A DNA stretch of 64,000 bases from the NCBI RefSeq assembly GCF_032854445.1, contig NC_088300.1:58502984-58566983 (forward strand), read 5' to 3'. Of this stretch, positions 16,294-43,289 are shown in pieces. This DNA comes from Liolophura sinensis (Eukaryota > Mollusca > Polyplacophora > Chitonida > Chitonidae). The notes under the pieces were generated by a model that ran no database searches, was not told the DNA's origin, and saw nothing but the letters and a program-made list of their open reading frames with translations. Each line of letters begins with the position of its first letter. Within the stretch, counting starts at the first letter, position 1. Both the position numbers and the translations under genes were made by a program.

Positions 16294-17220
16294 TTCGAGG
16301 TTATATTTTTTCTTCTGTATTTTATTACTTTTTTAGTATGATTCAACGGATTTTCAGCATTTTTTTTTTTAAATATTTTTGGAGATGTTCTTTTTTATCT
16401 AAGTTCACTTTTTATATACGCCTGCACAACATTTTCTTTGTTCCGTATCTGTTTTTTTGTGAAAGAAAGACGAGGCAATGGAGCAAATGTTCAGATATTA
16501 CGAATGGCACTAATAGGCCAAGTGTTGTACCCCGAAGTGAAGACATGGAGATGAGCCATCACACTGCCCTGTAACAGGAGATAATGGGAAATATGTTAAT
16601 GTGAGGAGCCTGTTTCTTAGGAAGCGGACGTCAATCAACGGGGCCATGAAGACATCTACCGCCATGAGCAAAGGCCTGGCTTTTATCCGGATTACAGTGA
16701 TACGTGTAATCATAAAAGATGATCAAAGCGAAATTAAGACTACTTATGTGTCGTGTCTAAGGCGACAGACAGATTGGAACCGTTAAGTCCCGGTCCATCC
16801 TGTGAGCATCTTTTTTCATTATTAAGATGAAATAAACCAATGACATATAGGCTTGCATATATTCGTGCAATCCATCTTAGACAGTGGTTGACATTAAAGC
16901 AATAAACGCCGACACAGTTCAAATATATGGCGTTTATGATCCTGTTGGAACAACGGTCTCGACAGCTAATTAATGTGACAAATCACATGGCGGCCATGTT
17001 CCTTCAAAGGCTGGGTGGTCAGTTGGTGACACCAGCCTTTCTGAAGAATGATAACACCCCACAGTTTGAATACGATCTTCCCAGCATGTACCACAGGTCT
17101 GAAATTGTCCACCATACACAGATTCATCACATTTCAACAAACAATGGTTTTCACCTTATATACATGCATGGTACTGAAACGTGTCTGAGTTATTTCATCA
17201 GATAATGACGTATCACGTGA
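16294..17220. other. No supported feature
   Basis: T-rich DNA up to 16400, then mixed sequence with short frames (60-92 residues) on both strands. No recognisable protein or exon. Confidence 0.45.
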
Positions 17221-17444
17221 TTTCAAAGGATATATAGCTGGCCTAATGATGTTCTAGAGAGTAGACTCTTAAAATGACATGTTTCATGATGTCTTCTTAA
17301 TTTCAATCTCTGTATGTGGCTGGTGAAATTATGTTTTAGAAGGGTGTCTCTGAAAATGACCTTTATCTTATGATGTGTTCTTAATTTCAGGGGTTCAGGG
17401 CAGGGGGACTCTTTTTCATGAAGTGTTGGCCATGTTGGTAATTA

Positions 17445-18400
17445 TATGTTCTCGAGAGGAGACTATTAGAATGGCGTATCATATGACATGTTGTTAATTT
17501 CAACGTCTATACATTTGGCGTATTTATGTTCTAGAGAGATGACACCAACATGACGTATCTTATGACGTGTGGACAATTTCAGCGTCTGTGTACATTTGGC
17601 GTATTTATGTTCTAGAGAGGTGACACCAAAATGACGTATCTTTTGACGTGTGGGCAATTTCAGCGTCTGTGTACATTTGGCGTATTTAAGTTCTAGAGAG
17701 GTAACACCAAAATGACGTATCTTATGACGTGTTGGCAAATTCAGCGTCTGTATACATTTGGCGTAATTATGTTCTAGAGAGGGGACACCAAAATGACGTA
17801 CCTTATGGCGTGTTGGCAATTTCAACTGTATACATTTGGCATCTTTATGTTCTAGAGAGGGGACACCAAAATGACGTATCTTATGACGAGTGGACAATTT
17901 CAGCGTATGTATATATTTGGCGTATCCATGTTCCAGAGAGGGGACACCAAAATGACGAATCCTATGACGTGTTGGCAATTTCAGTATCTGTATACATTTG
18001 GCGTGTATATGTTCTAGAGAGGGGACACCAAAATGACGAATCCTATGACGTGTTGGCAATTTCAGTATCTGTATACATTTGGCGTGTATATGTTCTAGAG
18101 AGGCGACACTGAAATGACGTATCTCATAATGTGTATTTAAGTTTGGGGGCTACTAATTTCTACATAGCTGAAGAAATTTGTTCTAGAGAGGCGACATTAA
18201 AATGACGTATCTGATGATGTGATGTTATTTTTAGGGCTGTATATAGTTGGCGTATTTATGTTCTAGAGAGCGGAGTCTAAAAATCTCATGACGTGTTAGT
18301 AATTTCAGGGGCTGTACATACGTATTTATGTGCTGGAGAGGCGACACCAAAATGGCGAATCGCATGATGTGTTCTTAATTTCAGTGGCTGCATAGCTGGC
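17445..18400. repeat. Minisatellite, 81-bp unit
   Basis: About eleven copies start at 17525, 17606, 17687, 17768, 17846, 17927, 18008, 18089 and then less regularly near 18177, 18257 and 18327. Most spacings are exactly 81 bases. Each unit has TATGTTCTAGAGAGG, ACACCAAAATGACGTATC, TATGACGTGT and CATTTGGCGTA. Because 81 is a multiple of three, both strands stay open, giving frames of 197 (-) and 127 (+) residues with a 27-residue period. These are not annotated as genes. Weaker related copies may extend left to about 17230. Confidence 0.92.
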
Positions 18401-18504
18401 GTGCCGTAATTACATTGCGGTAATCTATTATATTGAATAGAGGGACTGCGATAGCGAGCCGTTATCCTTCAAGTGTATGCATTACTTAATAACTGTTTTG
18501 CATG

Positions 18505-18506
<2 letters not shown>

Positions 18507-18555
<49 letters not shown>
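18507..18555. repeat. (TA)n microsatellite
   Basis: About 20 TA units, slightly interrupted at the right end. Confidence 0.9.
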
Positions 18556-18861
18556 TTTTTTTTCTGCGTGGAGAAAACTAAAGCGACCGAAACAGACAAA
18601 GCAAGTTTTACTTACCCAGCATGTACAAGGAGGCATCGCAATCTGTAGCAAAAATGGAAACAACTTGGTAAATTTAAGTACAATATTGTGCAATACCGAC
18701 CAAACGACAGAAAGAAATGAAAAGGGCCAAAAATTGAGTTTAACACACCTAGGCGATTTATCTATCTGCAATTTTTAATGCCATTAAGTGATTGCGCATA
18801 AGCGCTAAACGTGACATGTTTAACAGAGCACTATAGAAACAAAACAATAAACCCTTAGCAA

Positions 18862-19020
18862 ATTTATCTATTTATTTATCTGATTGGTGTTGAGTACACC
18901 ATACTCAAGTATATTTCACTTATACAACTACGGCCAGCGTTTTGGTGGGAGGAACCGGGCAGAGTTCGGTGGAAATTGCCAACCATCCGCATGTTGCCGG
19001 AAGACCTTTCCACGACCGAC
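18862..19020 (-). mobile_element. SINE family B, reverse orientation
   Basis: It starts with a TTTATTTATCTGATTGGTGT-type tail, then TACTCAAGTATATTTCACTTA, GGTGGGAGGAACCGGGCAGAG and AACCATCCGCATGTTGCC, the reverse complement of the family B body. Confidence 0.8.
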
Positions 19021-19344
19021 ACTAAAATAAATAACGGGCCAGTGGAAAGAACCACTGCAAACCGATAATAATTCCATGAGTCAATAATTTCTTTTCAGCT
19101 TATTCAGGGCTTAGCATTATACTATAGCATTACGTTAATTGTTGCTTCAGCCAGATAATAGATTTAAAGTGTACAAAATGGCTAGGCGATCATATATGTA
19201 TAAACGCAAATATAGAAGAAAAAACCCTGATATGACACGATGAATTTCAACAGTTTTGTTTTTCTTTTTACCTTTTTTTTCTTTCCTTTATGGTTGGTTA
19301 ATGCCAGTAGGCTTTTTCATTGAGTTTTCATTTAAACGGAGAAA

Positions 19345-19615
19345 AGTTCTGTGGGAGGAAATAACCTGAGTAATGGGTGGAAATAACCTGAGTGGTGGGT
19401 TTAAATAACCTGAGTGGTGGGTGGAAATAACCTAAGCGGTGGGTGGAAATAACTTGAGCGGTGAGTGGTGGGTAGAAATAACGTGAGTGGTGGGTGGAAA
19501 TAACCTGTGTGGTGGTTGGAAATAACCTGTGGTAGGTGGAAATAACTTGAGTGGTAGGTGGAAATAACCTGAGTGGTGGGTGGAAATAACCTGTGGTAGG
19601 TGGAAATAACTTTCA
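19345..19615. repeat. Tandem array, 22-bp unit
   Basis: About twelve copies of GGGTGGAAATAACCTGAGTGGT with variants, some shortened to 20 bases. The overlapping minus-strand frames (82 and 121 residues, rich in FHPPL/YFHLP) are array artefacts. Confidence 0.9.
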
Positions 19616-20624
19616 ATCTGTTGAAACATTGTGCCGTAGTATGAAGCAAAAAAAAAAAAAAGACTACTAGGTAAATTTAAGTATAAAGTAAATACAGGAA
19701 TGCCGCAGGAATTTGCTGCTGCTTCGCTTGGCCTCCTGCAGTGAGAGGTTAGAACAAGGAAGCAGGACTGGGGTGCCATGTCCGGTGTCTTCGGCATGAT
19801 ACTTCAGCGGCGGCATGCATTCGTCCTGTCATAAGTAGACACACACTGTTTTGCCTGTCATGTCGGAGCAAGATAGCAGACAGTTTACCTAACACAGCTG
19901 AATATTCAGTCACTCAAACCTAACACTCGGCAGTTTAGACTGTGAACCATTTATTCTGGGTGGGAAGCGGTAAAGGCTGGAAGGAATAAAAATAAACAAT
20001 GAGGACAAAGTTCGCATCCGAAATATAAACAAAGTGTCAAACAATGTACATCACTTTACAATGTCACACACAGGCAAGGGACAATACTTAGAACGTAACA
20101 ATTCGTACTTATCAAGAGTTATCTCCCTTATTGATTTATTGGGTGTGACCTCTGGACTATACGTATACTGGTACTGTTCAAATTATTATAAGCCCGAGTC
20201 TGAATATCTAAATTACAACTACAAAAAAAAATCAGTAATTTTACCTTAGAAATAAAACGTAAAGTGTGGCCGAATATAGCCGAAATCATAATCAACTTTG
20301 TAAGTGTCCTCCACTAAAGTCTCTTGGCTAAAAGTCAGGGATTTGCCGTATATGTTGTTGTTGTAAAGTTCAAATGTTTATCTCCTCAGGATTATGAAAT
20401 GTCAAACGCACAGTTCACAAACGCAATACGTAAACAAGAAATTGCCGTGCAAGTTTCTATATACAATTGTCACACATTGTGGTGGGCTCCACGCTCACAG
20501 AATCTGTCACACAACATCGCAGCGTGCGACAAAGCCTCGTAGAGTTCTCGCGGGCTTAACTGACCTACGTGGGCGAATTATGAATATTTAACAGGTACGT
20601 CAATGATTGACAGTACACACACCT

Positions 20625-20690
20625 GATGACGTCGTTATATGACTAAAAGATTGCTAAGTACCACCTTAAATCCAAGCATTCATTTATTTA
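20625..20690 (+). mobile_element. SINE family A, 3' end fragment
   Basis: GACGTCGTTATATGACTAAAAG followed by AGTACCACCTTAAATCCAAGC is a diverged family A tail, ending in a CATTCATTTATTTA run. Confidence 0.6.
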
Positions 20691-20699
20691 TGCAGGCTA

Positions 20700-20866
20700 T
20701 CTCCCCAGAGGTACATGGGATGGTCTTCCAATAACCTGTGGATGGTCGTGGGTTTCCAGCGAGCACTGTCCGATTTCCTCCCACCCATAATGCTGGCTGC
20801 CATCGTATAAGCGAAATATTCTTAAGTAGGCTACGTCGTCAAGCTCTGATCAAATAAAGCAAATAG
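20700..20866 (+). mobile_element. SINE family B, 5'-truncated
   Basis: It contains CCTGTGGATGGTCGTGGG, TTCCTCCCACCCATAATGCTGG, CGTATAAGCGAAATATTCTTAA and a TCAAATAAAGCAAATA tail. Confidence 0.8.
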
Positions 20867-21194
20867 ATACATTCGCGTCATCTCCTCAGATGATGAAGGA
20901 TTGTATGTTACGCATAGCCTACACTACTGCACGCATTGCCCATGGGAACAAGGCCTTAATAGGTAGGCCCCTATACACACGTATACATATGGCGAAATGT
21001 GTGATTTCTGCAGAAGTGTGTTTCAGTAAAAGGAATTACTGGTCGTTGCCCTTAACAACTGGGCCAGGGTAACGAAAAGAGACCATTGTCAATGATATAT
21101 GTTATATCTTAAATCATTATAATTCATTATACACGCTTCACACTTGTTTTTTTTTTTTTTTTTTTTTAATTGTTGTGCAAGGATCATATCATAT

Positions 21195-21428
21195 TCACGG
21201 TTGTGGGTCTTCCAGCACTCTGGGGGTTCCCCCCTTCCCCCAGGCTCTGCTCGGCTTCCTTCCACTATTATACTAGCCGCCGTGGGTCTTCCAACAATCT
21301 GTTGATGGCCCTCCCCTTCCCTCTCCCACCCAGGCGTTGTTATTATACTATTATACTAGCTGCCGTCGTATAAGTGAAGGATTTTGTGAATACGGTGTAA
21401 AACACCATTCGAGTCAAATAAATGAAGT
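21195..21428 (+). mobile_element. SINE family B, with an internal partial duplication
   Basis: The GTGGGTCTTCCAGCA to ACTATTATACTAGC segment occurs twice (about 21201-21280 and 21280-21362) before the usual CGTCGTATAAGTGAAG...TGTAAAACACCATT tail. Confidence 0.7.
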
Positions 21429-21990
21429 AATTAATGTTTGTGTTTATTAGGCTCTTGTGGCACTTAACTTTTGTTCCAAGATCTCACGTAGCCCCCTAGA
21501 AATGTACATATATATCTATTAGAGACATTGCTGTTATTATATACTTAGCTGTTTAATAAAAAACGAGAAACATTTTGGGTTTAGTATTTGTTTATTTACT
21601 GGCGTGAGCCAATTGTCGTTGGTGTAAATGAATTTATCTGACCGGTGAAATGAACATCTGCAATCACTACCTGTGTATACTTTGAAATGGTATCGCCTAA
21701 GGTCGAATGTTGTAACGCTTTTCGTGGATGCATGACGCGCCTTATATCCGATGGATGTGCCTGTTACTTTAGACTCGTCGATGTTCAACACTGTGTGCAG
21801 AGGTTTAACAGAATTATTATTTGTTAAAAACTTTATCAAGTAAAGCTACTTCCCTGTTTACATGCGCGTAACACTGTTTGTGCTCGTCAGTTATAAAGCA
21901 TCACGTTGCAGCTCTAATTATTAACAACCGCACTACACAGCCGAATTGGTCGGTCATACATACCAGGATTTTGTCATAAATTTCCCTTTC

Positions 21991-22050
21991 GAGTGAGTGC
22001 TTGAGGTTTAACGTCGAATTTCGAAGGCTCGCCATAATCATTCATTCATT
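21991..22050 (-). mobile_element. SINE family A, tail fragment
   Basis: GAGTGAGTGCTTGAGGTTTAACGTCG is the reverse of the family A terminus, followed by an ATTC microsatellite. Confidence 0.6.
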
Positions 22051-22255
22051 CTTTCGAAGGCTGGATGCAAAAGCAGCTTCAGGACAGTTTGCTTGTGTTG
22101 TTTTAAGGCAAACGCGAGCATAGTATGTCTGGCTTTTCTGTGCCCCGTCTTGGTGAAGATATGGCTGACATCAATGGTAAGCAAATGAGTTGTATTTATA
22201 TTTGTTACTATCGCTAACTTCTCAAATAATTCCAATGATACATATTTAAAAGTTA

Positions 22256-22745
22256 CATCGATGCGATACACAGTTACACATTGCGCGGATATGATCCATA
22301 TTTACAGGGTGCGAGTGATACATTGGAAATCGAATGGGTGTAATACACACAGCTGTATTTACAAATCGTCTATATGTCATACACCCTTACATATCAAGAG
22401 AATGAAATACACCTTTACCAATCGTGGGGGTGTGATATTCAGTTACAGATCATGTGGATGTGGCACACTCTTTCAAATAGTGTGGGTGTGATGCCTCCAT
22501 ACCAATCCTGTCGAAGTGATACACCCTTTCAAATAGTGTGGATGTGGTACACACTTACACTTAGTTGCGTGGAAGTTTTACACACTTGCAAGTATTGTGC
22601 GTGTTGTACACACTTGCAAGTATCGTGTCTGTGGTACAGACTTACAGATTGTGTGAATGTGGTACAAATGGTGTGCATGGGCTACAGACTTACATGTGAT
22701 ATACCAATCGTGCTGGATGTCGAACACATTTATGAACTGTGTGGA
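22256..22745. repeat. Degenerate tandem array, ~28-bp unit
   Basis: Repeated units near TACACACTTGCAAGTATTGTG plus an eight-base GTGTGG-type linker. Best spacing (28 bases) is seen between 22400 and 22680. The 76- and 133-residue plus-strand frames follow this repeat. Confidence 0.8.
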
Positions 22746-23582
22746 CTAATTTCCAGTGTTGCACACCATGTCTAGCCTTTAGTGTACTAAGAATTTCTCT
22801 CAAACGGCGCTGTTCATGACAAGCCAGGATATTTTTTCAGATAGGCAACTATCTAACGATTTTCAAGAATAATGTTTATCTACAAATTAATGTGTACATT
22901 TGATAGACATGTTATGTCCTTTTCGTGCATATCTAGTGTACTTTTTGTACACAAGTGCTTTTAGAAAGTATGGAGACAAAACTAGACACTCTATGAATTT
23001 ATTTGCGTAAACAAAGCAGTACAGGCTGTTTTGAAATATAGCCGAGCAGTGCAACATCGATCTGAAGAAAAAGTAAAAGAAGAAATATGCCCAGCCATGC
23101 TTCATAGAATGTGGTGAATGCATCAGCGTTTTTCATCAGCAACTTTTTCATAGTGTCTGCTCGGAAACCCGCGTAAAATGAAAGTAAAACCCGGATTTTT
23201 TTTTTATCATTATACGTATGTTCACGCTTGTTATAAAATAAATAAAGGGAATAACTGAGACGATGCTACTTTCATTAAGTTACACGTCACGTCATCACTA
23301 TGCATCAAATACAAATACATCAACCAGTCTTTTTGAAGGGCCGCTCTTTAAAAAAAAATGCGATCAATCATATTGCTGCAGTTAATAACGTCAGTTATTA
23401 AACAAAAACAAACAAAAAAATCCAAAAAAAACCCCCAAAAGACAACAATCACAACAACAACATTGACTTTAGCAAGTTAGTGGCGAATTTTCCCTCATGC
23501 GACGTGCAGATATGTACTTTACATTGCTGGAAGAGAAATGGTCTCAGACACCCATTAAAAGATACTATAAGTTCATTGGAGC

Positions 23583-23945
23583 CAACGTAGGTTAGTTGGT
23601 TAGCGCGCTAGCGCAGCGTAATGACTCACAAGCCTCTCACCAATGCGGTCTCTGGGAGTTCAAGTCCAACTCATGCTGGCTTCCTCTTCGGCCGTATGTG
23701 GGAAGGTACCCATCAAACAAATAAATAAATGTATTTATTTATTTGATTCTTGTTTTACGCTGTACTCAAGAACATTTCAATTATTTAACGACGGTCAGCA
23801 TTATCACCATCCGCAGGTTGCCGAGAGGCCTTGCCACTTACGGCCGGAGAGGAAGCCAGCATGAGCTGGACTTGAACTCACAGCGACCGCATTAGTGAGA
23901 GGATCCTGAGTCATTACGCTACGCTAGCGCGTGAACCAACTATGA
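23583..23945. mobile_element. Inverted pair of SINE family B copies
   Basis: A plus copy lacking its middle (23583-23728: tRNA-like head GTTAGCGCGCTAGCGCAGCG, GAGTTCAAGTCCAACTCATG, then straight to the AAATAAATAAAT tail) abuts a nearly complete minus copy (23729-23945). The heads are complementary over about 105 bases, so the locus can fold into a long hairpin. The box B-like GAGTTCAAGTCC marks the Pol III tRNA ancestry. Confidence 0.85.
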
Positions 23946-24228
23946 ATAAATATAAGTTCACTGTCTAAGGCCGGGTTTGAAACCTCACCTCGTGTGTCCA
24001 CTATTATCTACGCTTCACTCTCCCAAGGTGGTTGACATAAAATTTACGTACGATAGCACTGTAAGAAATAATGGCTCTAAAGGATAGCTGTGTGACCCTA
24101 TTTTAACCAGAGTAGTCAATGACAAACTTCCTGATTTACTGTATAATTTAGCGCACGAGCACATATATTTATATACGCTCTCAAGTACAGAAATGCCGCT
24201 AATGGTCACTGTTTTTTTTTTCCGCCAG

Positions 24229-24376
24229 TTATATGAATTACAGGCCTGTAGAAGGAAGTTTTGTGTAGATGATTCCCCGCACTGTCGGATAGGCTGTAAT
24301 GCTCTGACATATATACACGCATATAATAACTTACACGATAAATATGACAGACTGAACTCAGATTATTGGATTCACG
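24229..24376 (+). CDS. Possible upstream ectodomain exon of the YxxM-tail receptor
   Basis: A 148-base stretch follows a strong acceptor (ten T, then TCCGCCAG) and ends at CACG followed by GTATCT. Read in phase 0 it encodes 49 residues with four cysteines clustered at the start (ACRRKFC, HCRIGC) and ends NSDYWIH plus one base. That trailing base is exactly what the exon at 26342 needs to continue in frame (codon GAA). Cysteine spacing and the YWI stretch faintly recall lectin-like ectodomains, but no family is claimed. The donor is weak, so this exon may be spurious. Confidence 0.33.
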
Positions 24377-24696
24377 GTATCTCTATGGTCACATAAGTTA
24401 GACTTATTCATGTGTTTGACGGGTACATGTATACCCTACATAAATAACTGGTTTACAGCAGCACTATTACAGTATAGTACTACCTACTTTGTCGAGGTTA
24501 CTATCAGGTAGCACGTCCAGGTTAGTATTCATTCTGAAGAGAGATTACCTCTACCTATTTTATTTATTTTTTTTGTTCAGATAAATCCGAAAGAAAACAT
24601 GGGGAATTCAACTGACATGTTGCTGTTATCTTAACACCACATCTTAAAAGTGTTATATATAAGTGTCCTATGCGTGTGTATGCATGTGTATAAGGT

Positions 24697-24893
24697 TTCA
24701 AAATCGAATCCAACTAATGCGGTCGCTCTGAGTTCAAGTCCAGCTAATGTTGGCTTTCACTCTGGCCATACGTAAGAGGGGTCGTGGTTTTTCACCGAGC
24801 TCTGCCCGATTTCCTCCCAACATAATGCTGACCACCGTCGTAAAAATGAAATATACTCGAGTACGGCGTAAAATACCAGTCAAATAAATCAAA
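24697..24893 (+). mobile_element. SINE family B, head partly lost
   Basis: It runs from AATGCGGTCGCTCTGAGTTC through ATTTCCTCCCAACATAATGC to GAGTACGGCGTAAAATACC and TCAAATAAATC. Confidence 0.85.
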
Positions 24894-24907
24894 ATCGGAC
24901 ATATGAT

Positions 24908-25172
24908 GGAATTGAGTGGCTCAGTTGATTAGCGCGGTAGCTCAGTGTTATGAGCCAGAAGCCTCTCACGAATGCGGTCGTTGTGAGTTCAAGTCCAGCT
25001 CATGCTGGCTTCCTCTCTGGCCGTACATGGGAAGGTCTGCCATCTACCTGCGGATGGTCGTGGGTTTTCCCTGGGCTCTGTCCGGTTTTCTTCCACCATA
25101 ATGCTGCTCGCCGTCGTATAAGTGCAATATTCTTGAGTACAGCGTAAAACATCACTCAAATAAATGGATAAA
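24908..25172 (+). mobile_element. SINE family B, full-length reference copy
   Basis: This is the most complete copy here: box A-like TTAGCGCGGTAGCTCAGTG, box B-like GAGTTCAAGTCC, a central GGTCGTGGGTTTTCC and CACCATAATGCTG segment, then ATTCTTGAGTACAGCGTAAA and a TCAAATAAATGGATAAAT tail. The open frames across it are repeat-derived. Confidence 0.88.
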
Positions 25173-26081
25173 TTTAACAGAAATGGTGTAGCCAAAATCT
25201 GTTCATGAGTCCTGCTATCAACTGGCTGATGGAGTCCGGTGCTGGTTTACAAAACAAAGCAAAAGTTTCAAAGTGATAAACAATAAAGTGTGTTTTAGTA
25301 GTATACTGTACATTTTATCATTTCTTAACATAGACAATTGGTCAACATTTATACAGCTGATAGATAATACAAGTGATTCTTTTATATGTTTATGTTTATA
25401 TAGATGTTTTTGTTCTATTTGCTTCAATACACCGTGTCCTTAAACACGAGTTTGACATACGACACCTAGAAATGTGTAAATTCTAATCATTGACATCAAC
25501 TCTTAGAGAATTATTTTTTGGCGGAAGCATTCTTTTTTCATCGATACACGTGGATTGATCGCCACAAGTTTTTTTTTGTCTTACACTATTCTGCCCATGG
25601 TTCACGTTTAATTTTTCCTATTGTTTTCCCTTCTTTTTTTCTTTCCCTCTTTCCCGCCATTTTTTAATAGAAAAGTAATATGTTATGATTTCCCGACCCC
25701 TTATTTTTTGTACTTAATATTCCACAGATCTATATTTTGGGAATAAATAAGTTTTAATGAATTTATTCCCGGCATAACCGTCTGGTTCGTCTAGTTTATT
25801 CATAACACGATGACAACCGTTGTTGTTGTCGTATTTTTGATAAAGTTACAGAATACAAAAACAGGAAAATAGAAAGAAAAAAAGACAGCGTTAGTAAGTA
25901 AAACCGCATCTACATGTAACCTGCATTCTTTTATTTGTTGAGAATGTATAAAATGCCATGGATACGACTGATTCCTGACAATTAACAGCTGAATGCATGT
26001 ACAAATTTTGTCTTGCTGCTAGTACGTTACGCTTAATCAGGTGTGTGCATGCGCACTCTAGCGTAGATGTGTATGATAGCC

Positions 26082-26218
26082 TTCTGTTTTCATGAAATGT
26101 AACAAAACAAAGAAAGAGAAAAACAAAAATCTTTGTTTGTTTTAGTATATATATATTCTGTTTTCATGAAATGTAACAAAACAAAGAAAGAGAAAAACAA
26201 AAATCTTTGTTTGTTTTA

Positions 26219-26229
<11 letters not shown>
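26082..26229. repeat. Perfect tandem duplication, 74-bp unit
   Basis: The segment starting TTCTGTTTTCATGAAATG at 26082 recurs unchanged at 26156 and leads into the TA tract. No mismatch was seen, so it is recent or an assembly effect of the adjoining microsatellite. Confidence 0.9.

Positions 26230-26310
<81 letters not shown>
26218..26310. repeat. Long (TA)n microsatellite
   Basis: About 46 uninterrupted TA units ending only 31 bases before the acceptor of the receptor exon at 26342. Confidence 0.95.
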
Positions 26311-26315
<5 letters not shown>

Positions 26316-26341
26316 AATATTTCTTTATCTGACTTCTCCAG

Positions 26342-28768
26342 AAACTATTAATTTCAATTTAACGAGTGCTGTCCGTCCACATGTGATCGAGGAGCTGTTC
26401 TGGTCTGCGGTAGGTGAGTTGCCTCCCTTGAAATATCGGCCGCCTTGATTAGCACTAACATGCACCTGTGTGTAAAACAACGCTCAGTACTCGCACTTGC
26501 AGAAAATAACCGATCTTTTACAAGGCCATGTGATATGAATACCTCGTATATTTAAACCTACATACATCAATTAGTTAAAATGGCGACTTTATTCCATGAA
26601 CTAGTTTGCACCAAGGCAATAACGGGTATTTCTGGCTATTCTAATCCACAATGATATCACATTTTTAAACGTAAATTAATAAATATTTAAACTGAAACAT
26701 TTAAAGGGAAATGCTTTAGATTGTCTTCTAAAATGTAATTCTAAAGTGCGATGGCGTCTTCGGACCACATGTAAGTGTTGTGAGGTTAAAAAGACACAAT
26801 ATATGCACACAGCAAATGACTTCTGGTAGTCATTTGACTTGAAAAATGTTAAGAACGACATGTACACACAGGTCAAATAAAAACGATCGCTCAGCATAGT
26901 TAAAATTTGTAGCTGTCAAGTTGATATTTTTTGATCACATGCCGAACCCTCACGCATGCTTGTTAAAGTTTCAGTAATTCTTCAGACCGAATTTTGTCAA
27001 GTAATATATTTATAATGCACATAATAGTATTGCATTTGCCAATTTTAATAGCGGAATATTTACTTTCGCAGGCATATGCTCGACAGCAGTTTTGATGTCT
27101 ATTCTTGGATGTGCCGTTTACTTCTGTGTGTGAGTATTAAACTCCCCTTTGTGAACAAGGCGGTAATCCCCACGCTGGCTTAAGGGCAAAGAAAACACTA
27201 CCAATAATATGTCAAGTGGAAGAACATTAAACACTGTCTACAAAAACAACTGGATTTTTTTAGAATTGTTTTTAACACACTGAATTGCATTGGAAACTTT
27301 TGGATTCTACAGTGGCCTTTTCAGACAATAATGAGACCAAACATTTTACCGCCTAACTCACATACACGAAGCCTCCTAGATTTCAGCATACGAACTGTAT
27401 ATACATGTAAATCTATGAATGTTTTCGACGAATGGAGGTTAAAAAAGACTGTTTCTTGCTTGGAAAAAAATACTAAAAAAAAAAAAAATACATCAGGCTG
27501 TTTTTCCTGACATTCCCTACTGATCTGTCATCTGATATCTGGTGTATTCTTTAACTTTAAAACACAACCATACATCTCCATATTTCTCCATATTTTACCA
27601 TATTTCCGGTGCTCGTTTGTACAGTTGTGCGAAGGGCATGTTTGGTATCATGCAGAAGACATGTAGTTTGTTTAATATTTAGATCTTAGATCAACTAAAC
27701 TAACTAACATTCAAGATAAGTTTACTGTTAAAAAGAATGGATATTCTAATTCGTAGATAGAAAGTCGACCAATAAAACAATACAATTAAAATTCTCAATG
27801 ACCAGTTTCATAAACGAAATTAGCATCTTTACCATTTGAAAAAATACATAGTTCTTAAGTGAAAGACAGTTACCTATCAGTAGATGTAGTCAAAAGTCTC
27901 CGGCGATGGCGTAAAAGCGCTTGACACTTCCATAAACCTACAGAGCATGATGAATTAAACTTCACGTGCATATTGATTCCATCGTCAGATGCCTCCGTGG
28001 TATTGCTCAACTGTTCATCTAATTCAAGAAATTAAACATTAAAAGGTGCATGGATCCAATTTTATATACCACAACCTTTACGCTTTTTGAACAGCGCATT
28101 CATCATTATTTGCACTCATTGGTAGTATTTACATGGCAACAGAAGAAAGCTTTGATGTTTACGTTCCTTAATTATATGTTCAAAGGGGTCGAAAAAGAAA
28201 CAGAAGTTCGAGAAACTGGAAAGGTTCGGTAAGAAAAATGCCTCCAGATTCAGGAAGACAACTTCATCGTCCTTCCAAACGCTCCAGTAGATCTTCCAAA
28301 AAAGATACTTCGGAAGCACATAAAGGGAAGAATGTCACTTTCACCATTTTTCATGGACGAGAACGCAGTCCTAGTTCATCTAGGATCTGTAAGACACCAC
28401 AGGGAAATCAAAGCGTGAAAGAAAATGTGTGTGCTAAGCACGAATGTGATTGTAATCGCACATCTGCAGACGGCCCCAAGTTTGGAGCGACTGCGATACC
28501 TGATGGAGCTTATCTTGGAATGGAGATAAACTGCAATCCCACATGTACAGAATTGAGAGAAACTCACATGGATTTGGAGAAGAAAGCTTTGCACTTGTGG
28601 AAACAGACAAATAGCGCCCATGAAATAAACGTACCGATGTATATTAATAATGACAACAGGAGAGAAGTGAAAGTGTGTGACGTCGGTGAAGGTGACAACG
28701 TTAGAGTTCCGAAAGCTTATAATTATATGGTCATGGGGATTGTATGTGAAAACATGACTCACAAATGA
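26342..28768 (+). CDS. Unrecognised single-pass membrane receptor with YxxM/YxN tail (3' part of gene)
   Basis: Exons 26342-26413, 27072-27129 and 28186-28768 join in consistent phases (1, 1, 2) with GT-AG borders; two donors are consensus GTGAGT. They encode 236 residues: a juxtamembrane stretch with one N-glycosylation sequon (NLT), a transmembrane helix (LFWSAVGICSTAVLMSILGC and onward to AVYFCV), a basic stop-transfer GRKRNRSSR, then a hydrophilic, Ser/Arg-rich tail of about 193 residues. The tail holds YLGM, YNYM and YMVM, which fit the PI3K p85 SH2 site pYxxM, and YINN, which fits the GRB2 SH2 site pYxN. The last two YxxM motifs overlap, 14 residues from the stop. The exon order suggests a type I receptor whose ectodomain lies upstream; no signal peptide was found, so the 5' end is missing. 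Family not recognised. Tyrosine-kinase-linked signalling is inferred from motifs only. Confidence 0.68.
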
Positions 28769-28770
28769 AT

Positions 28771-28803
28771 GTTCACAGAGGTTTTTTAAAGACCTCTGTG
28801 GAC
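28771..28803 (+). other. 12-bp-stem hairpin just after the receptor stop codon
   Basis: GTTCACAGAGGT pairs with ACCTCTGTGGAC (11 of 12) around a T/A-rich loop, starting three bases after TGA. It is unlike the histone 3' stem-loop. Confidence 0.6.
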
Positions 28804-28904
28804 ATTCCTATTCATATTCCCTGAAAATGACATGAAGTTTGAAACTGCAGGTGGAATATAGCAGAATGTAGACAGTTGAGAAGGCGTTTTATTATTTTTC
28901 TCAT

Positions 28905-29090
28905 GCAGAGTGCATGTAATGTGCTTATTTAGTGCTGCTCCACTGAGACGCCTTACCGAAGGCAAGTAAGCTTCCCCGCCCGAGCCATTATACTGATACG
29001 GGTCAACCAGTCGTTGCACTATCCCCTTCATATGGAACGCCAAGCGAGGAAGTTTCGACTTCTTCTTTTACAGTTTTAAATGTGACTCGA
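28905..29090 (-). mobile_element. SINE family A, reverse orientation, truncated
   Basis: It contains GAGTGCATGTAATGTGC, CGCCTTACCGAAGGCAAGTAAG and TACTGATACGGGTCAACCAG, the reverse complement of the family A body, and so probably lies in the receptor 3' UTR. Confidence 0.85.
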
Positions 29091-29332
29091 CCGCGAATAT
29101 TTGACGGTTAACGTAGAATAAAGTTAAAAATAACAGGTTTGAACTTGCAAGAACCAAAAATGATAAAATAGCCATTTCGCCAGAAATTCCCAATCCAAAC
29201 ATTGAGGAATGAGGTTAAGTCTGTCATAGGAGATGAAAAGATATGGAATTGCTCTGTAAGCTTTCTTTATAGATATCTGTAATTTATACCACGAGTCGTT
29301 TTTACTTTAAATCATACCGAATCTTTTTTGGT

Positions 29333-29338
29333 AATAAA
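29333..29338 (+). terminator. Candidate polyadenylation signal of the receptor gene
   Basis: AATAAA 565 bases after the stop codon, in GGTAATAAATAATTGG context. Confidence 0.35.
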
Positions 29339-29344
29339 TAATTG

Positions 29345-30705
29345 GAGAAACACTGGCTCTGTAATGGTATGTAATCACCGCATAATTGTTATTGATAACC
29401 CACAGTACAGCAATTGACATGTTTCCATTATTTATCGTAACGATTTTTTCCACCATAAGGTTTCTCAATTGCATTCGTTTTAAACGTCTCTATTTGTCTT
29501 GTCACACACAGTAAAAATAAAATCGACGCTCATAAACGATGCAACACTGGATATTCTATGTTCCCGTTTGAAAAACTATTATCGGCAAAACTATGAAAAA
29601 ATATGTCGTACATGAAGAACCAATTAAAGGCCTTTCTGTTCAAGTGTTATAGCTCAATAATACAATACACATGGCCGTGGTTTTGATAGAATGGATGTGA
29701 GCACCACTCATTCTAACATTTTTAAAATTAATGTTTTGTCAATATTCATTTCGGACGAAATTTGGCTGAAAGCTTTCACGAACAATGTCCAGATTTCAGA
29801 ACTGCTATATAGACCCTTCTGAATTTCAAGATTTTCTCATAACCCCTGTCTTGCATAAGGTAATCGTATAGCCAACTTTTACACTTTAAGCACGATAAAC
29901 ACACAACGCTTCTTTCAAAGTTGGTCAAGTTTAAAAGCATGACACGATTTCCAAAAACTGATCATTCTTACTCATTCTTAACCATTCTTACATTGCTTCT
30001 TTCAAGATTGATCGTATTAGAAGTTCGAAAGCATTGTGACGATTCCAAGAATCGATCAAGTGCTACACATAATCAATTAACCACACCAGTGTTCTCTTTG
30101 ATTCGTTTATAAGCGCTGTAAATGGTCAATGTAGGCTGTTAAGCAGAACATCTTAGATCTTTCAATGTATAATGTGGGAGCTGGTGAGACAGCCGGTAGC
30201 GCTAATGAGTCGTCGGCCGCCTGTGAGAGTGTGTTAAATATATAAGCCAGGAATCCATCTTAACAAAATTACGGAGCATGCGAGTCGACGTTTAACTGAT
30301 GACAGTGTTAAAAGTGTCATCTATCATAACTGATGTATCGCCCAAGTCAGCACCGCCCCATAAAACAGACAAATATCTTAGAACCAAAAAATAATTCGGT
30401 TTGGAAATGACGTTTATGCAGAGGATCTTTTGCCAATTACAACACGTGACCGATGAGGAAAAGCTATTTTGAGAAAAACCTCAACTCGATGTTATCGCGC
30501 AGCTAGGTTTCGTTATACCCCAACGCCCTTTTCATAAATCAAAGCGTTTTTCGCACAGAGAGGAAAATCTATCTTAATTATAAAATCATCAAATGGTTAG
30601 AAAAATTTAGCGGTCGCACTTTTATGAAATACAAAGACAGCCCAAAGCATTCAAGCGAGAGAAGCGATAAAATATTTATGAGTGTTCCCGCGTTAATTTG
30701 AAGAC
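29345..30705. other. No supported feature
   Basis: Unique AT-rich DNA with one 63-residue chance frame. A segment near 30180-30235 (AGCCGGTAGCGCTAATGAG) may be a decayed family B head. Confidence 0.4.
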
Positions 30706-30709
30706 CCGA

Positions 30710-30723
30710 GCGCCCTCTGGTGG
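30710..30723 (-). promoter_or_regulatory. CTCF-like insulator motif
   Basis: On the minus strand this reads CCACCAGAGGGCGC, a full match to the bilaterian CTCF core CCASYAGRKGGCRS. CTCF is conserved across many bilaterians; occupancy is unknown. Confidence 0.5.
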
Positions 30724-31625
30724 TCTTTATAAACATGAGAGGCGAAGGAGCAATGTGCCGTGATCAAGAACTTCATTATCTAAATTGCCTAGCGTGTCTA
30801 ATAGCACCGTCAATCATAATGTGCTATCATGATAATATAGCTTTATTAATACGATGTTCCACTGAGGTAAATATTCGCTGAGATCAGTATTGATGATTTA
30901 ATAAAGATTTTATGAAAGACCTAGCAAAAGATGCAGCTTCTGCTGACCCGTCATACTCCATTTTACTGATTAAAGTAACTGACCGTCCGATTATTACGAG
31001 TTCGAAACCGATCGGATCCTTTTTCTATTTCAAATAGAAATTGCTGGATGGAAAGTGTCGAATTCGTACCCATATTACATACCTACTTTAATTGTCCATG
31101 GTTGACCTCAAAGATCCATATTTAAAATGTATTCATATAGGCCTAGTTTTAAATCAATTTCTGAACAAAGTACAAATTGCTTGGAAACACCATGATGGTA
31201 CTTCCAATATTGATACAGATTTATAGATTTTTGTAGCATCATGGGAGCTATGTTCTCGAATCCCTCGACCCGTGTAGTCGAAATTTTTTTCTGTTGATGA
31301 ATTAAACATGTATAAACGCATTTGGCGTATATTACACAAGTGTGAGAAGGAACAGGTCTGAAGTAAGTACCTCATTGTAAACCTTAGTTTGACTTATTGC
31401 TACTAAAACACAAGGTATACTGAAATATTGAAATGCCCTGTTCGGTTCTACAATCAATATCGGAGAAACTTGACATGCCAAAAAAAGAGAGGAAAAAAGA
31501 GAACCCTAGGCTAAAGTGGACCATAGGGGGACACTTCATTTTGTGGAAGACTGTGTGGTGTGTATGGGCCAGATTGTTAACACCGTGTATATTCTTAATA
31601 CCGCATGTATGTTTTATTACGATAT

Positions 31626-31652
<27 letters not shown>

Positions 31653-31660
<8 letters not shown>

Positions 31661-31738
31661 TTTGATTGGTGTTTTACGCCGTACTCAATAAGTGAAGTAT
31701 TCTTGAGTACGGCGTAAAACACCCATCAAATAAATAAA
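31653..31738. mobile_element. Fold-back of two SINE family B tails
   Basis: The arms 31653-31688 and 31703-31738 are reverse complements with one mismatch across a 14-base spacer. Each arm is the family B terminus (GTTTTACGCCGTACTCAA and its complement) with its TTTA tail. Confidence 0.85.
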
Positions 31739-31956
31739 ATAAATACTGTAAGTTGTTACCATCAAGTATATTGTTAATATCGTACTCCTACATGTTTTTA
31801 AAACAAAACCAGTTCTTAGTTATTTGGGGAAATGGGTGGAAACATAAATAAAATAAATACTGTAAGTTGTTACCATCAAGTATATTGTTAATATCGTACT
31901 CCTACATGTTTTTAAAACAAAACCAGTTCTTAGTTATTTGGGGAAATGGGCGGAAA
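31729..31956. repeat. Tandem duplication, 114-bp unit
   Basis: AAATACTGTAAGTTGTTACC at 31741 recurs at 31855. The copies are almost identical through AGTTATTTGGGGAAATGGG; a single T/C difference was noticed near the end. Confidence 0.9.
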
Positions 31957-32526
31957 CAGACCGAAACAGCGTTAACCACTTTATTCTGCTTTGTAACTGT
32001 AAATCAGCATTTAATCTGGAATTCTTACGTGTCCATACATGAAATGCACCATATTATATAAACTGCGAAAACGAAGTCGTGTCTCTCGTTCCCCGCTCTC
32101 ATATGGCTACAACGCAGAACAGCCGCGTTCTCGATTTACAGAAACAACTCGCAACTAATTGGGTAAAATTTGCGGCGTTTTCGATTTTCTCAAACATGCG
32201 CCATTTTACTTACATTAAACTGTGATTTCTCGGTTATGCAACATCACAAAGCTAAACAGATATGCTTTTTAAACGGGGTGTGGGATACTATATCAATGCA
32301 TATATGCATTTGGTCTAGCTAGTGTTGTCTTTAAATACATTTGGTGTTGCTTATGCTGCATGTGTATCACGTGTTTAAACGTGAACGTACTAGTGTATGT
32401 TCATGATGTTTCCTTACAACAGTTTACTTTTTTGCGGAAGGTCTCGGGTATCGCCAATTATGCAAAAGTACAAACAATATAGATATTTGAGCAATGCTTT
32501 GGTTCCAAACAAGTTAAAAACTCATT

Positions 32527-32912
32527 CTTTAAATTTTCACCGCCCCGGATAGCACAGTTGGTAGAGCGTCCGCTTCTGGACCTGTAGATCCAGGATCAAT
32601 CCTTGATCGAGTCACACCTAAGACTTTAAAAGAGGAAGATGTAACTTCCTCGCTTGGCGTTCAGCATGAAGGGGATAGTGCAACGACTGGTTGACCCGTA
32701 TCAGTATAATGGCTCGGGCGGGGCGGCTTACTTGCCTTCGGTAAGTCGTCTCAGTGCAGCACTAAATAAATAAAAGAGCGGTGGAAATCCGTCCTGCAAC
32801 AAGGAGGCACATTATACGTACATGCACCCTAATGATTCCTTCGTCGTCATATGACTGAAAAATTGTTGAGTACGACGTTAAACCCCAAGCACTCACTCAC
32901 TTTAAATTTTCA
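32527..32912 (+). mobile_element. SINE family A, full-length, with 13-bp target-site duplication
   Basis: The element at 32540-32899 is bounded by CTTTAAATTTTCA on both sides. The tRNA-like head has ATAGCACAGTTGGTAGAGCG (box A) and GGATCAATCC (box B-like). The body is very close to the 53.3-kb copy and the tail ends in a CACTCACTCA repeat. The low divergence between these two copies suggests recent activity. Confidence 0.9.
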
Positions 32913-33511
32913 TCTGAGGCAGACTTGCAAGTCACGATTCATAAATGCAAGGTTTAGGTGAAATTGAACAAAATATCCTTGGAATATGACAACTGAACAT
33001 GCTACATTGGAATTCAATTCCAAAAAGCTCATAAGAATGAAAACTATTCGTCACATTTACTATAAAAGTGTGTTAAAGATTGGTTCTTTCGTTACCCATA
33101 TGTGTAAATACATGCACGAACAAACCCCACAGCATAGGGTATACTCCCATGGTGATTTTGTGATATTAAAGGCTAGTTTTAAATATATAGATTTCACGGG
33201 AATATCCGATTATTAACAAACATCTGCTTAAGCCAAATTTGTGTTGACAACGGTCAGGCCTGAGCTGTATTATAGCAGTCCTCATAGATATAGATAGAGA
33301 CTTTGTTGCTGTGAACTTAATACCGGCTTTGTCGGTGAAAAAGTCCAACCTTTCAGTTCATTTGTTATTGGTTAAAAATATTTACCCGATGTTCAATTCT
33401 CAATTTGGCGGAGTACAAGGCCCGTGAACTCGCCTATTCTTGACAACCCACGCGCAATTGACTTATCACGTCATTACCAACGACCGCGCTTTTTACATCT
33501 CTGGCCTAGTT

Positions 33512-33525
33512 GTTGCCACGGAAAC
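33512..33525 (+). promoter_or_regulatory. RFX X-box-like site
   Basis: GTTGCCACGGAAAC fits RYYNYY-N2-RRNRAC, the X-box bound by RFX factors at promoters of ciliary genes. A CRE-like ATCACGTCAT lies about 45 bases upstream. Confidence 0.45.
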
Positions 33526-33539
33526 AAAATATCCGACAA

Positions 33540-33740
33540 ATGAGATCTTGGGATGATATAGTGGATGAGATATATCACGTAATGTGGTATGACTGGCGAG
33601 GTTCATCCTGTTACAGGACTTGGCGGCTCTCATTGGGACTAAGTGAGGACGGGAGCAGCCATAAATCTGCAACCTCGTCCAATTTATCCGCTTATCTTTT
33701 TCGCTCGACAAGCCATAGACAACACTATCAGATTGTGTGA
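33540..33740 (+). CDS. Hypothetical 66-residue ORF behind the X-box
   Basis: An ATG 15 bases after the X-box opens a 66-residue frame starting MRSWDDIVDEIYHVMWYDWR, with a tryptophan- and acid-rich start and a Ser/His-rich end. It is not recognised. It could be a first coding exon if a donor inside it is used, for instance before the more compositionally biased second half. A 72-residue minus-strand frame overlaps it. Support is positional only. Confidence 0.25.
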   Translation: MRSWDDIVDEIYHVMWYDWRGSSCYRTWRLSLGLSEDGSSHKSATSSNLSAYLFRSTSHRQHYQIV

Positions 33741-33999
33741 ACGATCATAAGCGAGAATATTCCGGAAGATGCTACATTAATGACTGGATATACAGGACCG
33801 TTTCTCGTTCTATATGCTTGAAAGTACGGCATTGGTCTGTACAGTTATGTGTTCCGCCTTCGACATTTATCTCCTAGCAAATCAGTTAATGGATTCATGA
33901 ATGTCGCACGCATGAAACAAATCATTTAGTGCTGGAGAAAATGTTCTGATATTTTGTTGTGAAAATGCCAGAACGAAGAAATATCTGTAGTGTGTTTTA

Positions 34000-36900
34000 T
34001 TACAAATAAACTTCGAAATAAAATAACTGGGCCGAAGTAAGATACAGTAACCCGTGTCTTTTGTCGTTAGTTATGAGGAGGGCATGTATAGATAAAGCGA
34101 TTAACGCGTTTTCCAAATGTGCAATCACCAATGACAATGTTCTACAGTATAGTCTGTATTAGGTGACTGACAAGTTTATCGCGAACAATATGGAAAAGTC
34201 AAAGAAAGTAGGTCACTGCACGCTTAACTCTTTTATCTGTTGTTTATGTTATATACGAAATGGATGCTTCAAATAACCCGCCTATATAACCACAGATTAT
34301 GGCTCTCGGATGTATGCTGCCAGAAACAAAACCTCACAAAGTATGCTTGTCTGGAAGCTTTATTCCAATCTGCCAGATGTATGGCATACTGTCTTTGACA
34401 TTCCTCGGTAAAATGATATATATGTATGTACAAGCGTAATCCATCCATTACCTGAAGATAAATGACAAGGTGATGGTGATCTGTTTGACTTTTCTGTGAC
34501 GTAAACTGCGTATCCTTGACACTGATTGAGTATGCCAACAACGAGTTGCTTTCCTCAGAGAGAGATTTGCCAAAACCATCTCTCTCTCTATATATATACA
34601 TATATACACCTAAGACTACAGTGATTGTTTTGCCGAACGTAAAATCGAACTCGCTTGAATAACATATATGCCAGTGGTCTTAAACCTTAGATTTATGAGG
34701 GTTTTTATATGAGATGACAAGATTCAAACGTATATTATGAACCTCGTTCCTTAATATCTGTCCTGTGTTAAATTGAGGATGTCAGCAAAGCTCTGCTCCA
34801 CGGTAAGAAGAAAACGTCAGTTAATCCGTTTCTCACGAGATCAAGACGTTGTAATCACGGTACGTTTCCTGACATGGAGATGATAAAGAAGAAAAAATGG
34901 AAATCACGAAATCAACAAAATAGTGGGCAGTGACTACCCCATACTGACGAAATCACAAAATCGAACAATACATCATCAGGGCAACCCCCTATCAGCCGAA
35001 AACTCGGATAGTGTTCTATGTGATTGATTCTGTTATGTCACGAGGAATTGTAACGGTAACCTCTAGTCCGGAGAAAAGCCTATGCCTACAGAAATCTGCA
35101 AATCTGTGTTTCCTGTGATTGATGGCGTCTTAACGTTATCTCAATGTTTATTTTAGCCACGTCTTGACAAAAACAGGCTATGTTTTTGTGAGTGCTGGGT
35201 TGTTTAAGTACAGTCCGCATACTAGTGTCTTAAAAGGGCTCTGTGCACCACTACATGTATTGTCCATTACAACCAGCATGCGTGCAGTACGGTTTGGCTT
35301 AGAGCTTACCGTTATCACAGATTGTCACCCACAGTTATTTAACCAGCAGTCGTTTCTCATTCTGCTCTTTGATTTATTCTAATTGTACATCGTCAAATTA
35401 TACATTCAGACGAATTTACGAATAAGATCGTATTCAGGAATAGAATTAGATCTTGAAAAGGAAAGTACACTTTTTTGGAAATTAGGTTCGCTGTTGTTTT
35501 TCTTTTTGTTTTTTACCTTTCTGTTGGAAATAAATCTGAATTAAACCATGTCGCCCGGAAAGTAATAAACTGGTGCTCAACATTGCCATGAGGTCTACTA
35601 TATATGGCGCTATCATCATGGCAATAAGACTTTTTGCATTTTTTTTTCATTAAAGAAGGTAAAGTATAGTCAAGTGCTAAACCCTTCTGTAAATTCTGAG
35701 TGGAGAAAGACATCAGGATGTTTAACTGATACGGTGATCTAGTCGTAAAATAACGGAACAATAGGCCTATAACACTTCTGCTCTCGGCCATCGCACCAGA
35801 AATATAGTGGACAGTAGGCATGATATTCGGGTGAATCAGTACACGCAGGAATAGACAATGATTTGTTCTTGCGATCAGGTTCTCTGATTACCATCGAGGA
35901 CTGTTTGCCAATTTTTTACGTATATACCTGTAAGAGGCTCATTTTTGATGAGCCTTATTCCCCCGTCCTTTCTAGTTCTCTCCCTTTCATTGCAGTGTTG
36001 TGTGTGGCTACGTTTTGTGCCATCGTAGACATGTAGTTGCTTTTCCTTACTGATTTGTCAAGGGCTGTGCTTTTTGGTGGATTTTTCTATGCAAGGCATC
36101 TTCAGAATAAAACATGTCAAATAAACGATAATGTGTTGAAGGTTCACAGAAATGTTAATATTGTGGACGTTATATACATATATATATGCTGATGTCGTCC
36201 CGCTAAGCAAAGCAGTGCCTATCTCGCTTACGAATCAGTTATTCTCTGTATCTATCCACTCGTCCATCCACGCACCTGTGTGCTTATCAGAAGAAGCTAT
36301 CGTACATACAGCCAGTTTTCTTCAGGTGATTTTGTACTATGCTCATAAACGAATGCACACAGATTAGATAAGGTAGTTTATGATTGAGATTTCGTTCAGA
36401 CGGCTGTAGCCTGGCATTGAAGATTGACTAACGGTCCCAGTGTTGTGGGATATCTGATCTACCTGGCGGAATAACACAGCTATCTATGACTGTATTCTGG
36501 TCTCCGTTCAGTGCAAAGTGCTACACCACCTGTGAGAGGCACTCAACAGGTGTGCAGATGCTTTGTCTGCATGGATAGAGTCAAATGAGTATGGCGGCGC
36601 AGTGTATCCTTGGGGCCTAGGGCTTAAGCACGCTCTAAACATGTATCACTCACCAATAGAGCACCTGGGCATAGCCAGCTGTTTGTAACACTGCGCTTGA
36701 TAGCGTAACAGTTGCGTGCGGTGTGCAGAGTGCAGTGCATTGCGGATTATATTCGCTGCGAAGACAAATTCGCAATGCCAATAACACGCGGTTTTATAGA
36801 GAGAACGTGATCGAGGGTTTGATATGAAATCTCAACCTGCTAATATGCTTCAGTGCATGACCATACTTGTTAGAGATTTACTAATACGTTCACAATAGCA

Positions 36901-37380
36901 AAAAAAAGATCTATCCACAAAACCTGGGGGATTCGCGAAGATAGAATCAGTATGACGTGCACACATGGCGTTTCCATCAAACACATGCCTGTTTCTCACT
37001 GATTTCACCGCAACATTTACATTTGGTTTACACTGAACCTTTCCACGAAAAACATAGGGGAAAGCGATAAACAGCAGAAATATCAACATCCTATTTTATT
37101 AATAAAACACATGTGACATATGTATGAGTAATATAATTGAAATCCTGAACCCGAAACTAACATGCGGCTGATTTTAGAGGAGGAAATCTGGTGAAGTCCA
37201 TCACTCTGACATTCTTGACAAACCTGCTTTCATAAAGCCGCACTTTAATCGGTGAGTGCAAAAGCCTGTTAGAATTTATGTCAGTTAGAATTAAACCCCA
37301 ACTGAGGAAAGTGACTAGTGGCGGGAATTTCATTGGTTGCGTATGAGCATTAGCCAGCTATCACATGTCTTGCTATGCTC
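34000..37380. other. No supported feature
   Basis: Unique sequence with isolated frames (110 residues - at 34269-34601; 102 residues - at 35513-35821) that show no motif, no splice context and no family resemblance. Short TA runs occur near 34590 and 36175. Confidence 0.45.
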
Positions 37381-37444
37381 TTCTGGGTTTCCTGCCCATA
37401 CCTTATTCTTGAGTGCGACGTAAAACATCAAAGAAATAAATAAA
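37380..37444 (+). mobile_element. SINE family B, 3' end fragment
   Basis: ATTCTTGAGTGCGACGTAAAAC followed by ATCAAAGAAATAAATAAAA is the family B terminus. Confidence 0.75.
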
Positions 37445-37799
37445 ATTCTGTTCATGCTGTAATCTTCTATATTTAATATTAATATTAAGATCTTGTGTAC
37501 GTGCACTGATATGTCCATTACAATGCCTGTGCACTGCTGATAGATGAAGCAACCAAATTTTACATGTATATGAACTAGTACTACAAGTCAGTTCTGCGGG
37601 GTAGATGTCTGACGACGACGATAGTATCCACCTGTATCTGTCGGGTTTCATCAGCCCGTAAACCTGGATGAAAACTTCGGAGTGCAGAATTAATCAAAAT
37701 AATTAAATCAAATCCAACTAATCGCTAAACGTCACAGAACTGTCAAATAAATGTGGCGCTACCTCGCACAGTGAAAACGTTGGCTCTCTTCCGTTCTTC

Positions 37800-37933
37800 C
37801 AATGAGATCTTAGGTTCGAATCCAGCTTTCGCTGGCTCGACTGCACATTTAAGTCAAGAAGTTTATCAGGTGGTTTACGTAAGTGTGAATAATTGCTGAA
37901 TACTGCGTTAAACACTTTTGAAATAAATAAAAT
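37800..37933 (+). mobile_element. Decayed SINE family B copy
   Basis: GGTTCGAATCCAGCTTTCGCTGG matches the box B region and AATACTGCGTTAAACAC with an AAATAAATAAAA tail the terminus. The middle is poorly preserved. Confidence 0.6.
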
Positions 37934-37939
37934 GACCAT

Positions 37940-39900: not shown

Positions 39901-39942
39901 CGTTAAGTGGATGATAGAGATTCCCAGCCGGGAATACGCGGC

Positions 39943-41885: not shown

Positions 41886-41899
41886 ACTCCCACGTGTAA

Positions 41900-43280: not shown

Positions 43281-43289
43281 CACATGCAG

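Follow-up and report, generated by a model that had tools for sequence, protein, structure and literature searches.

Three exons on the plus strand, at 26342-26413, 27072-27129 and 28186-28768 of the window (the whole 64,000-nucleotide stretch analysed), join in frame and encode a hydrophobic membrane span followed by a long tail in which each of the four tyrosines lies in a motif fitting either the SH2 domains of PI3K p85 or GRB2. The three-exon frame probably belongs to a real gene. The protein may work like a transmembrane adaptor, serving as a putative signalling platform, and this mechanism is proposed tentatively.

Exon structure and coding evidence

The exons were proposed in the initial annotation with matching phases, and they are present as proposed: once joined, they read without interruption from the codon that is split ahead of 26342 through the stop codon at 28766-28768. 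The joined frame encodes TINFNLTSAVRPHVIEELFWSAVG, the span ICSTAVLMSILGCAVYFCV and then a tail of 192 residues counted from the first arginine of RKRNRSSR. The exon at 26342-26413 ends in phase 1 and encodes juxtamembrane residues on the predicted outer side, (E)TINFNLTSAVRPHVIEELFWSAV(G), including the sequon N-L-T. The transmembrane exon at 27072-27129 ends in phase 2 and encodes ICSTAVLMSILGCAVYFC(V), which has no charged residues and places cysteines 55 and 60 near the predicted inner face. The last exon, 28186-28768, begins with the basic stop-transfer RKRNRSSR and contains the predicted cytoplasmic tail and the TGA stop. The first polyadenylation-signal-like site 3' of the stop is the AATAAA at 29117-29122 on the plus strand, possibly a chance occurrence in AT-rich DNA. 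The exons are bordered by an exact 74-base tandem duplication (26082-26229) that runs into a long AT repeat, the whole region (26082-26310) ending about 30 bases before the exon at 26342, and by a short inverted repeat, CACAGAGGT / ACCTCTGTG, at 28774-28800, shortly 3' of the stop codon.

Splice sites were ranked with a simple self-written matrix among the 3516 AGs and 4086 GTs on the plus strand of the window. The acceptors at 26342 and 27072 rank 57th and 36th, and the donors after 26413 and 27129 rank 5th and 313th. The acceptor at 28186 is weak (rank 1080). Among the AGs of 28120-28340 it is the top-scoring phase-compatible one within the open frame up to 28287, and one with a slightly higher score opens at 28288. 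Since all four tyrosine motifs lie at or beyond 28511, they are independent of the choice of the last acceptor.

The window has a GC content of 39%; it contains introns and dispersed repeats, the latter of molluscan appearance, and appears to be animal DNA. It includes on the minus strand a 5-HT1-like receptor gene in a single open frame at 57190-58635 (Pfam 7tm_1, E 1.2e-75; best solved structure 5-HT1A, E 2e-83) and on the plus strand a gene at approximately 8902-10968 that we take to be Paip2-like from recall together with its PAM2 match. Three coding exons of the latter were delineated by eye (approximately 8902-9036, 9367-9531 and 10894-10968), the middle one acidic, and the PAM2 motif, SSKLNPNAPEFIPR, is at 10900-10941 (Pfam E 7.4e-5). 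An array at 17427-18209, mostly of 81-base spacing, is open on the minus strand as a 227-aa ORF of repeated RHFGVPSLEH-type units, with a 135-aa ORF on the plus strand. Two minus-strand ORFs gave Pfam matches below the curated cut-offs, a hydrophobic one of 108 aa at 8434-8757 (Yip1, E 0.0018, 18.6 bits against 28.6) and one of 174 aa at 52797-53318 (MARCHF6_C, E 0.012). A dispersed repeat family occurs in both orientations at 2243-2466, 14089-14311, 28925-29090, 32539-32903 and 53334-53695; two of its pieces are up to 99% identical, suggesting possibly recent activity, and the family is possibly a recently active mobile element.

The evidence that the three-exon frame is coding is moderate. 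The stop-to-stop ORF of the tail, 198 aa, is the third longest in the window, and since simulated windows contained ORFs of at least 198 aa in 5 of 60 cases at first order and in 4 of 40 at third order, length alone is weak evidence. These simulations agree with the reading that there is no gene and that an ORF, a transmembrane-like stretch and splice sites align by chance, as do the weak acceptor at 28186 and a codon-position model trained on the GPCR of the window, a protein of very different composition from the tail, which gave the tail frame no preference (rank 33 of 62 ORFs, with two of the five other tail frames scoring higher). Exons encoding hydrophobic segments point the same way. 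At a threshold of 1.9, picked after 2.1 was seen to leave out the target exon, strict splice sites yielded 2 such exons among 14 distinct exons on the plus strand, one of them 27072-27129, and none among 10 on the minus strand; looser sites yielded 4 of 52 and 0 of 57, respectively. Since comparable exons occur elsewhere on the plus strand, the span exon by itself is not significant. Against a chance alignment, the hydrophobic fraction of the tail (0.254) is lower than in any of 310 simulated ORFs of at least 120 aa, and its 3-base periodicity was matched by only 2 to 4 of 1000 dinucleotide shuffles. Under a stricter control, stop-free DNA with the tail's own dinucleotides, the codon-position bias was reached in 57 of 2000 sequences and the low hydrophobicity in 133 of 2000; with the dinucleotides of the flanks the counts were 49 and 0 of 2000. 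The periodicity test is weak for short exons, since a 201-base stretch around an exon of the neighbouring Paip2-like gene fails it (200 of 1000, not significant). Further against chance are the matching phases, the basic stop-transfer immediately 3' of the span and the tyrosine motifs, and a chance alignment is considered unlikely.

An antisense gene was considered as a better reading and set aside: a three-frame Pfam scan (E up to 1) of the minus strand of 16001-31000 found no family, and a 143-aa antisense ORF at 28379-28807 gave a match at chance level (E 0.19). The same scan of the plus strand at 28770-43702 likewise found no Pfam family; beyond 43702 on the plus strand and outside 16001-31000 on the minus strand, Pfam was applied to the GPCR ORF and to single ORFs. 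An origin of the tail in a repeat or mobile element was also rejected, there being none over 28186-28768 among repeats of at least 60 bases; the nearest family starts at 28925, after the stop.

Membrane span and outer part

The transmembrane helix of the initial annotation was confirmed as a hydrophobic span, the best 19-residue hydropathy window scoring 2.16. Judged by hydropathy only, the 254-residue model described below contains a single such segment: every 19-residue window that scores at least 1.6 begins within residues 35-44, and no window that begins ahead of residue 24 or beyond residue 62 scores above 0.43. Residues 1-41 carry a net charge of -4, and the 20 residues that follow the span one of +8. 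This difference in charge across the span predicts an outside-in topology with the N-terminus expected outside. By the charge-hydropathy criterion (0.383 vs 0.439) the tail is placed on the disordered side. Cysteines 55 and 60 are spaced C-x4-C, and the CxxC juxtamembrane palmitoylation motif is absent.

The candidate first coding exon, MSGFSVPRLGEDMADIN, is located at 22125-22176 on the plus strand and ends with a phase-1 donor that scores 8.9, ranking 22nd of the 4086 GTs and strongest of the 31 phase-1 ATG-exon donors scoring at least 4 in 11000-26300. An in-frame stop ends 18 bases upstream of its ATG, and a TATAAA lies 233 bases upstream of that ATG, at 21892; the stretch 21501-22130 contains three TATA-like sites, this one included. 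The CpG content was not decisive as evidence of a promoter, the observed-to-expected ratio of 1.19 at 21501-22000 being the eighth highest, with similar values elsewhere. Splicing to 26342 creates a new sequon, N-E-T, beside N-L-T. Of seven further 15.3-kb stretches taken from the two strands, three contain comparable ATG exons, and the odds that 22125-22176 is the first exon of the gene are about even. In the resulting 254-residue model the outer part comprises approximately 42 residues and carries two N-glycosylation sequons, and no signal peptide is apparent by eye.

An acceptor-like AG just before 22108, together with an ORF at 19240-19306, makes another start or further upstream exons possible. 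The latter, MNFNSFVFLFTFFFFPLWLVNA, is a signal-peptide-like first exon on the plus strand, in phase 1; it was not preferred, having a weak donor (score 4.7) and lying in T-rich DNA, and was kept as a rival. Models that start there would have a mature ectodomain of only approximately 25 residues when spliced directly to 26342 or approximately 48 via 22108-22176. The plus strand from 1 to 28202 was also scanned in three frames, with stops masked, against Pfam at E up to 1, and no Ig, EGF, lectin or other extracellular domain was detected. The only match above a curated cut-off was the PAM2 motif of the neighbouring Paip2-like gene, and one match was sub-threshold (DnaB_2, E 0.12). Detection of the 14-residue PAM2 indicates that the scan is able to see very short motifs; a domain split over several exons could escape it.

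Tyrosine motifs of the tail

Phosphorylated YxxM binds the p85 SH2 domains of PI3K and phosphorylated YxN binds GRB2. The tail was described in the initial annotation as holding YLGM, YINN, YNYM and YMVM, with two of the p85-type sites overlapping, and both statements are borne out. In the numbering of the 254-residue model, and all on the plus strand, the p85-type sites are YLGM at Y170 (28511-28522), YNYM at Y239 (28718-28729) and YMVM at Y241 (28724-28735), the last two overlapping, and the GRB2-type site is YINN at Y213 (28640-28651). These account for all four tyrosines of the tail, as three YxxM and one YxN.

Among 200,000 shuffles of the tail residues the fraction with at least three YxxM was 0.0001, and that with at least three YxxM and all four tyrosines fitting was 0.00001, post hoc probabilities that flatter the motif since it was chosen after being noticed. 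Elsewhere in the window, 253 ORFs of at least 60 aa contain 962 tyrosines, of which 21 are in YxxM, and none of these ORFs holds three. Stop-free simulated DNA gave at least three YxxM in 0 of 2000 sequences when trained on the tail and in 2 of 2000 when trained on the flanks. These statistics support the docking tail of the initial annotation as a set of predicted sites. It is highly improbable that the gene is real and the motifs incidental, the tail then having a part in trafficking or adhesion by way of, say, endocytic tyrosine signals or phosphorylation of Ser and Thr. Such a role would suit a tail in which Ser, Arg and Lys are abundant (17, 17 and 18 of 193 residues), but every one of the four tyrosines fits a p85 or a GRB2 site.

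The absence of Pfam and PDB matches agrees with the earlier view that the protein is not obviously named: no Pfam family matched the 237-aa or 254-aa version of the joined protein at E up to 10, and the joined 237 aa had no match in the PDB. The tail had no pattern match in viral contigs, and 15 pattern-matching stretches in bacterial and archaeal genomes were all left unconfirmed by tblastn; these nulls say little about relatives because the collections searched were viral, bacterial and archaeal. Among the matches listed from the open-licence PMC literature, judged by titles and the starts of abstracts, there was no invertebrate transmembrane adaptor with a YxxM tail; those listed for YxxM and molluscs include a study of the pearl oyster's insulin-related receptor. 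The passages obtained from PMC10199209, concerning an amphioxus receptor found with Grb2, mention neither YxN nor PI3K.

Receptor or adaptor

Of the PI3K docking receptor first proposed, the docking tail is upheld by the motif statistics and the term receptor is not, there being no extracellular Pfam domain on the plus strand of 1-28202 and, with the best-scoring candidate 5' exon, approximately 42 outer residues. Since a stub of that length leaves little room for a ligand-binding fold, the protein is read as a membrane platform. The adaptor reading draws on the fit of all four tyrosines, a tail on the disordered side, one hydrophobic segment, charges that predict outside-in insertion, a short stub with two sequons, if 22125-22176 is the first exon, and the lack of both a Pfam family in the joined protein and an extracellular Pfam domain on the upstream plus strand. 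Counting against it are a first exon at about even odds, possible upstream exons before 22108, the weak acceptor at 28186, the modest ORF length and codon bias, a span exon that is not significant alone, the absence of the CxxC of LAT and the post hoc nature of the probabilities. The alternative that the protein is a true ligand-binding receptor, in which further exons upstream, or exons with a domain that Pfam cannot see, supply a signal peptide plus an ectodomain, and clustering by ligand leads to PI3K and GRB2 docking, as for CD28 or PEAR1, is considered doubtful. It is favoured by the acceptor-like site before 22108 and the signal-peptide-like ORF at 19240-19306, whose phases match, and platelet receptors with YxxL and YxxM, including PEAR1, are reported to recruit Syk and PI3K via tandem SH2 domains when clustered (PMC9731471). 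Opposed to it are the absence of any extracellular Pfam domain from the plus strand of 1-28202, the T-rich DNA and weak donor of that ORF, and a mature ectodomain that even with 19240-19306 would be only approximately 25 or 48 residues long.

According to the adaptor model, a four-exon gene would encode a 254-residue single-pass protein inserted outer end first. Its frame, splice-site matches, hydrophobic span and motifs are present in the DNA; the candidate first exon and predicted topology would add a short glycosylated outer stub that, with the span, would tether the disordered tail to the plasma membrane. Phosphorylation of the tail would come from a tyrosine kinase coupled to another receptor, probably a kinase of the Src or Syk type. 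Once phosphorylated, Y170, Y239 and Y241 would jointly offer docking sites to the two SH2 domains of PI3K p85, phosphorylated Y213 (YINN) would dock GRB2, and PIP3 and Ras signalling would begin at the membrane patch of the tail.

The initial annotation had drawn an analogy to CD28 and IRS, which extends to the motif only; transmembrane adaptor proteins fit the architecture better. The protein is like LAT, LAX, TRIM, SIT, LIME, NTAL and PAG in its single span and long tail with several tyrosines fitting p85 or GRB2, and LAT is close in size to the 254-residue protein. A short outer part is common to both only if exon 1 is 22125-22176. The protein differs from LAT in having C-x4-C in place of the dicysteine CxxC; it also matches no Pfam family, and the type of repeat suggests that its genome is that of an invertebrate. 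Reviews describe transmembrane adaptors as single-span proteins whose extracellular domain is short and whose long tail bears several tyrosines, and the members reviewed come from vertebrate leukocytes (PMC2803307; PMC4861716); the juxtamembrane CxxC is attributed to LAT, LIME, NTAL and PAG only, with LAX, SIT and TRIM lacking it (PMC2803307). Adaptor-like working is thus plausible for the protein described here, and the Pfam search at E up to 10 gave no sign of kinship to a described member of the family.

Docking of PI3K through YxxM is shared with CD28 and ICOS, and the YMVM found here recalls the YMFM of ICOS. The CD28 family has an extracellular Ig V-type domain and one site, in contrast to the several here, and no Ig domain was found on the plus strand of 1-28202. 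DAP10 (HCST) is similar to the 254-residue model in its short ectodomain and has a YINM site (YINN here), but it has a much shorter tail and an acidic residue in the span, which is lacking here. IRS, Gab and BCAP also present multiple YxxM and YxN sites within a disordered stretch, and they are cytosolic, with folded domains such as PH or PTB (PH and PTB, with no span, in IRS), whereas the joined protein has a span and no Pfam domain. PEAR1 carries EGF repeats, and none were found upstream here on the plus strand of 1-28202; the likeness to PEAR1 and its relatives is in tail tyrosines that recruit PI3K upon clustering (PMC9731471). The pathogen-recognition candidates of Biomphalaria sudanica include the snail protein BSUD.3983, to which a domain named 'SHP2-interacting transmembrane adaptor protein, SIT' is assigned, the table row giving 817 (PMC10875847). 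Its likeness to the protein here is one of annotation, and the annotation suggests that snails may be a worthwhile place to look.

It is conceivable, if rather unlikely, that an invertebrate lineage independently built an adaptor resembling LAT or LAX, with a ligandless glycosylated stub, three p85 sites and one GRB2 site, as a PI3K platform for immune or growth receptors. Should the protein instead be a receptor with an unseen ectodomain, it would be a useful and more ordinary find. If the adaptor reading is true, coupling of receptors to PI3K via a separate membrane platform would be older, or would have arisen more than once, and the protein would provide a handle on the receptors and kinases that feed PI3K in an invertebrate lineage.
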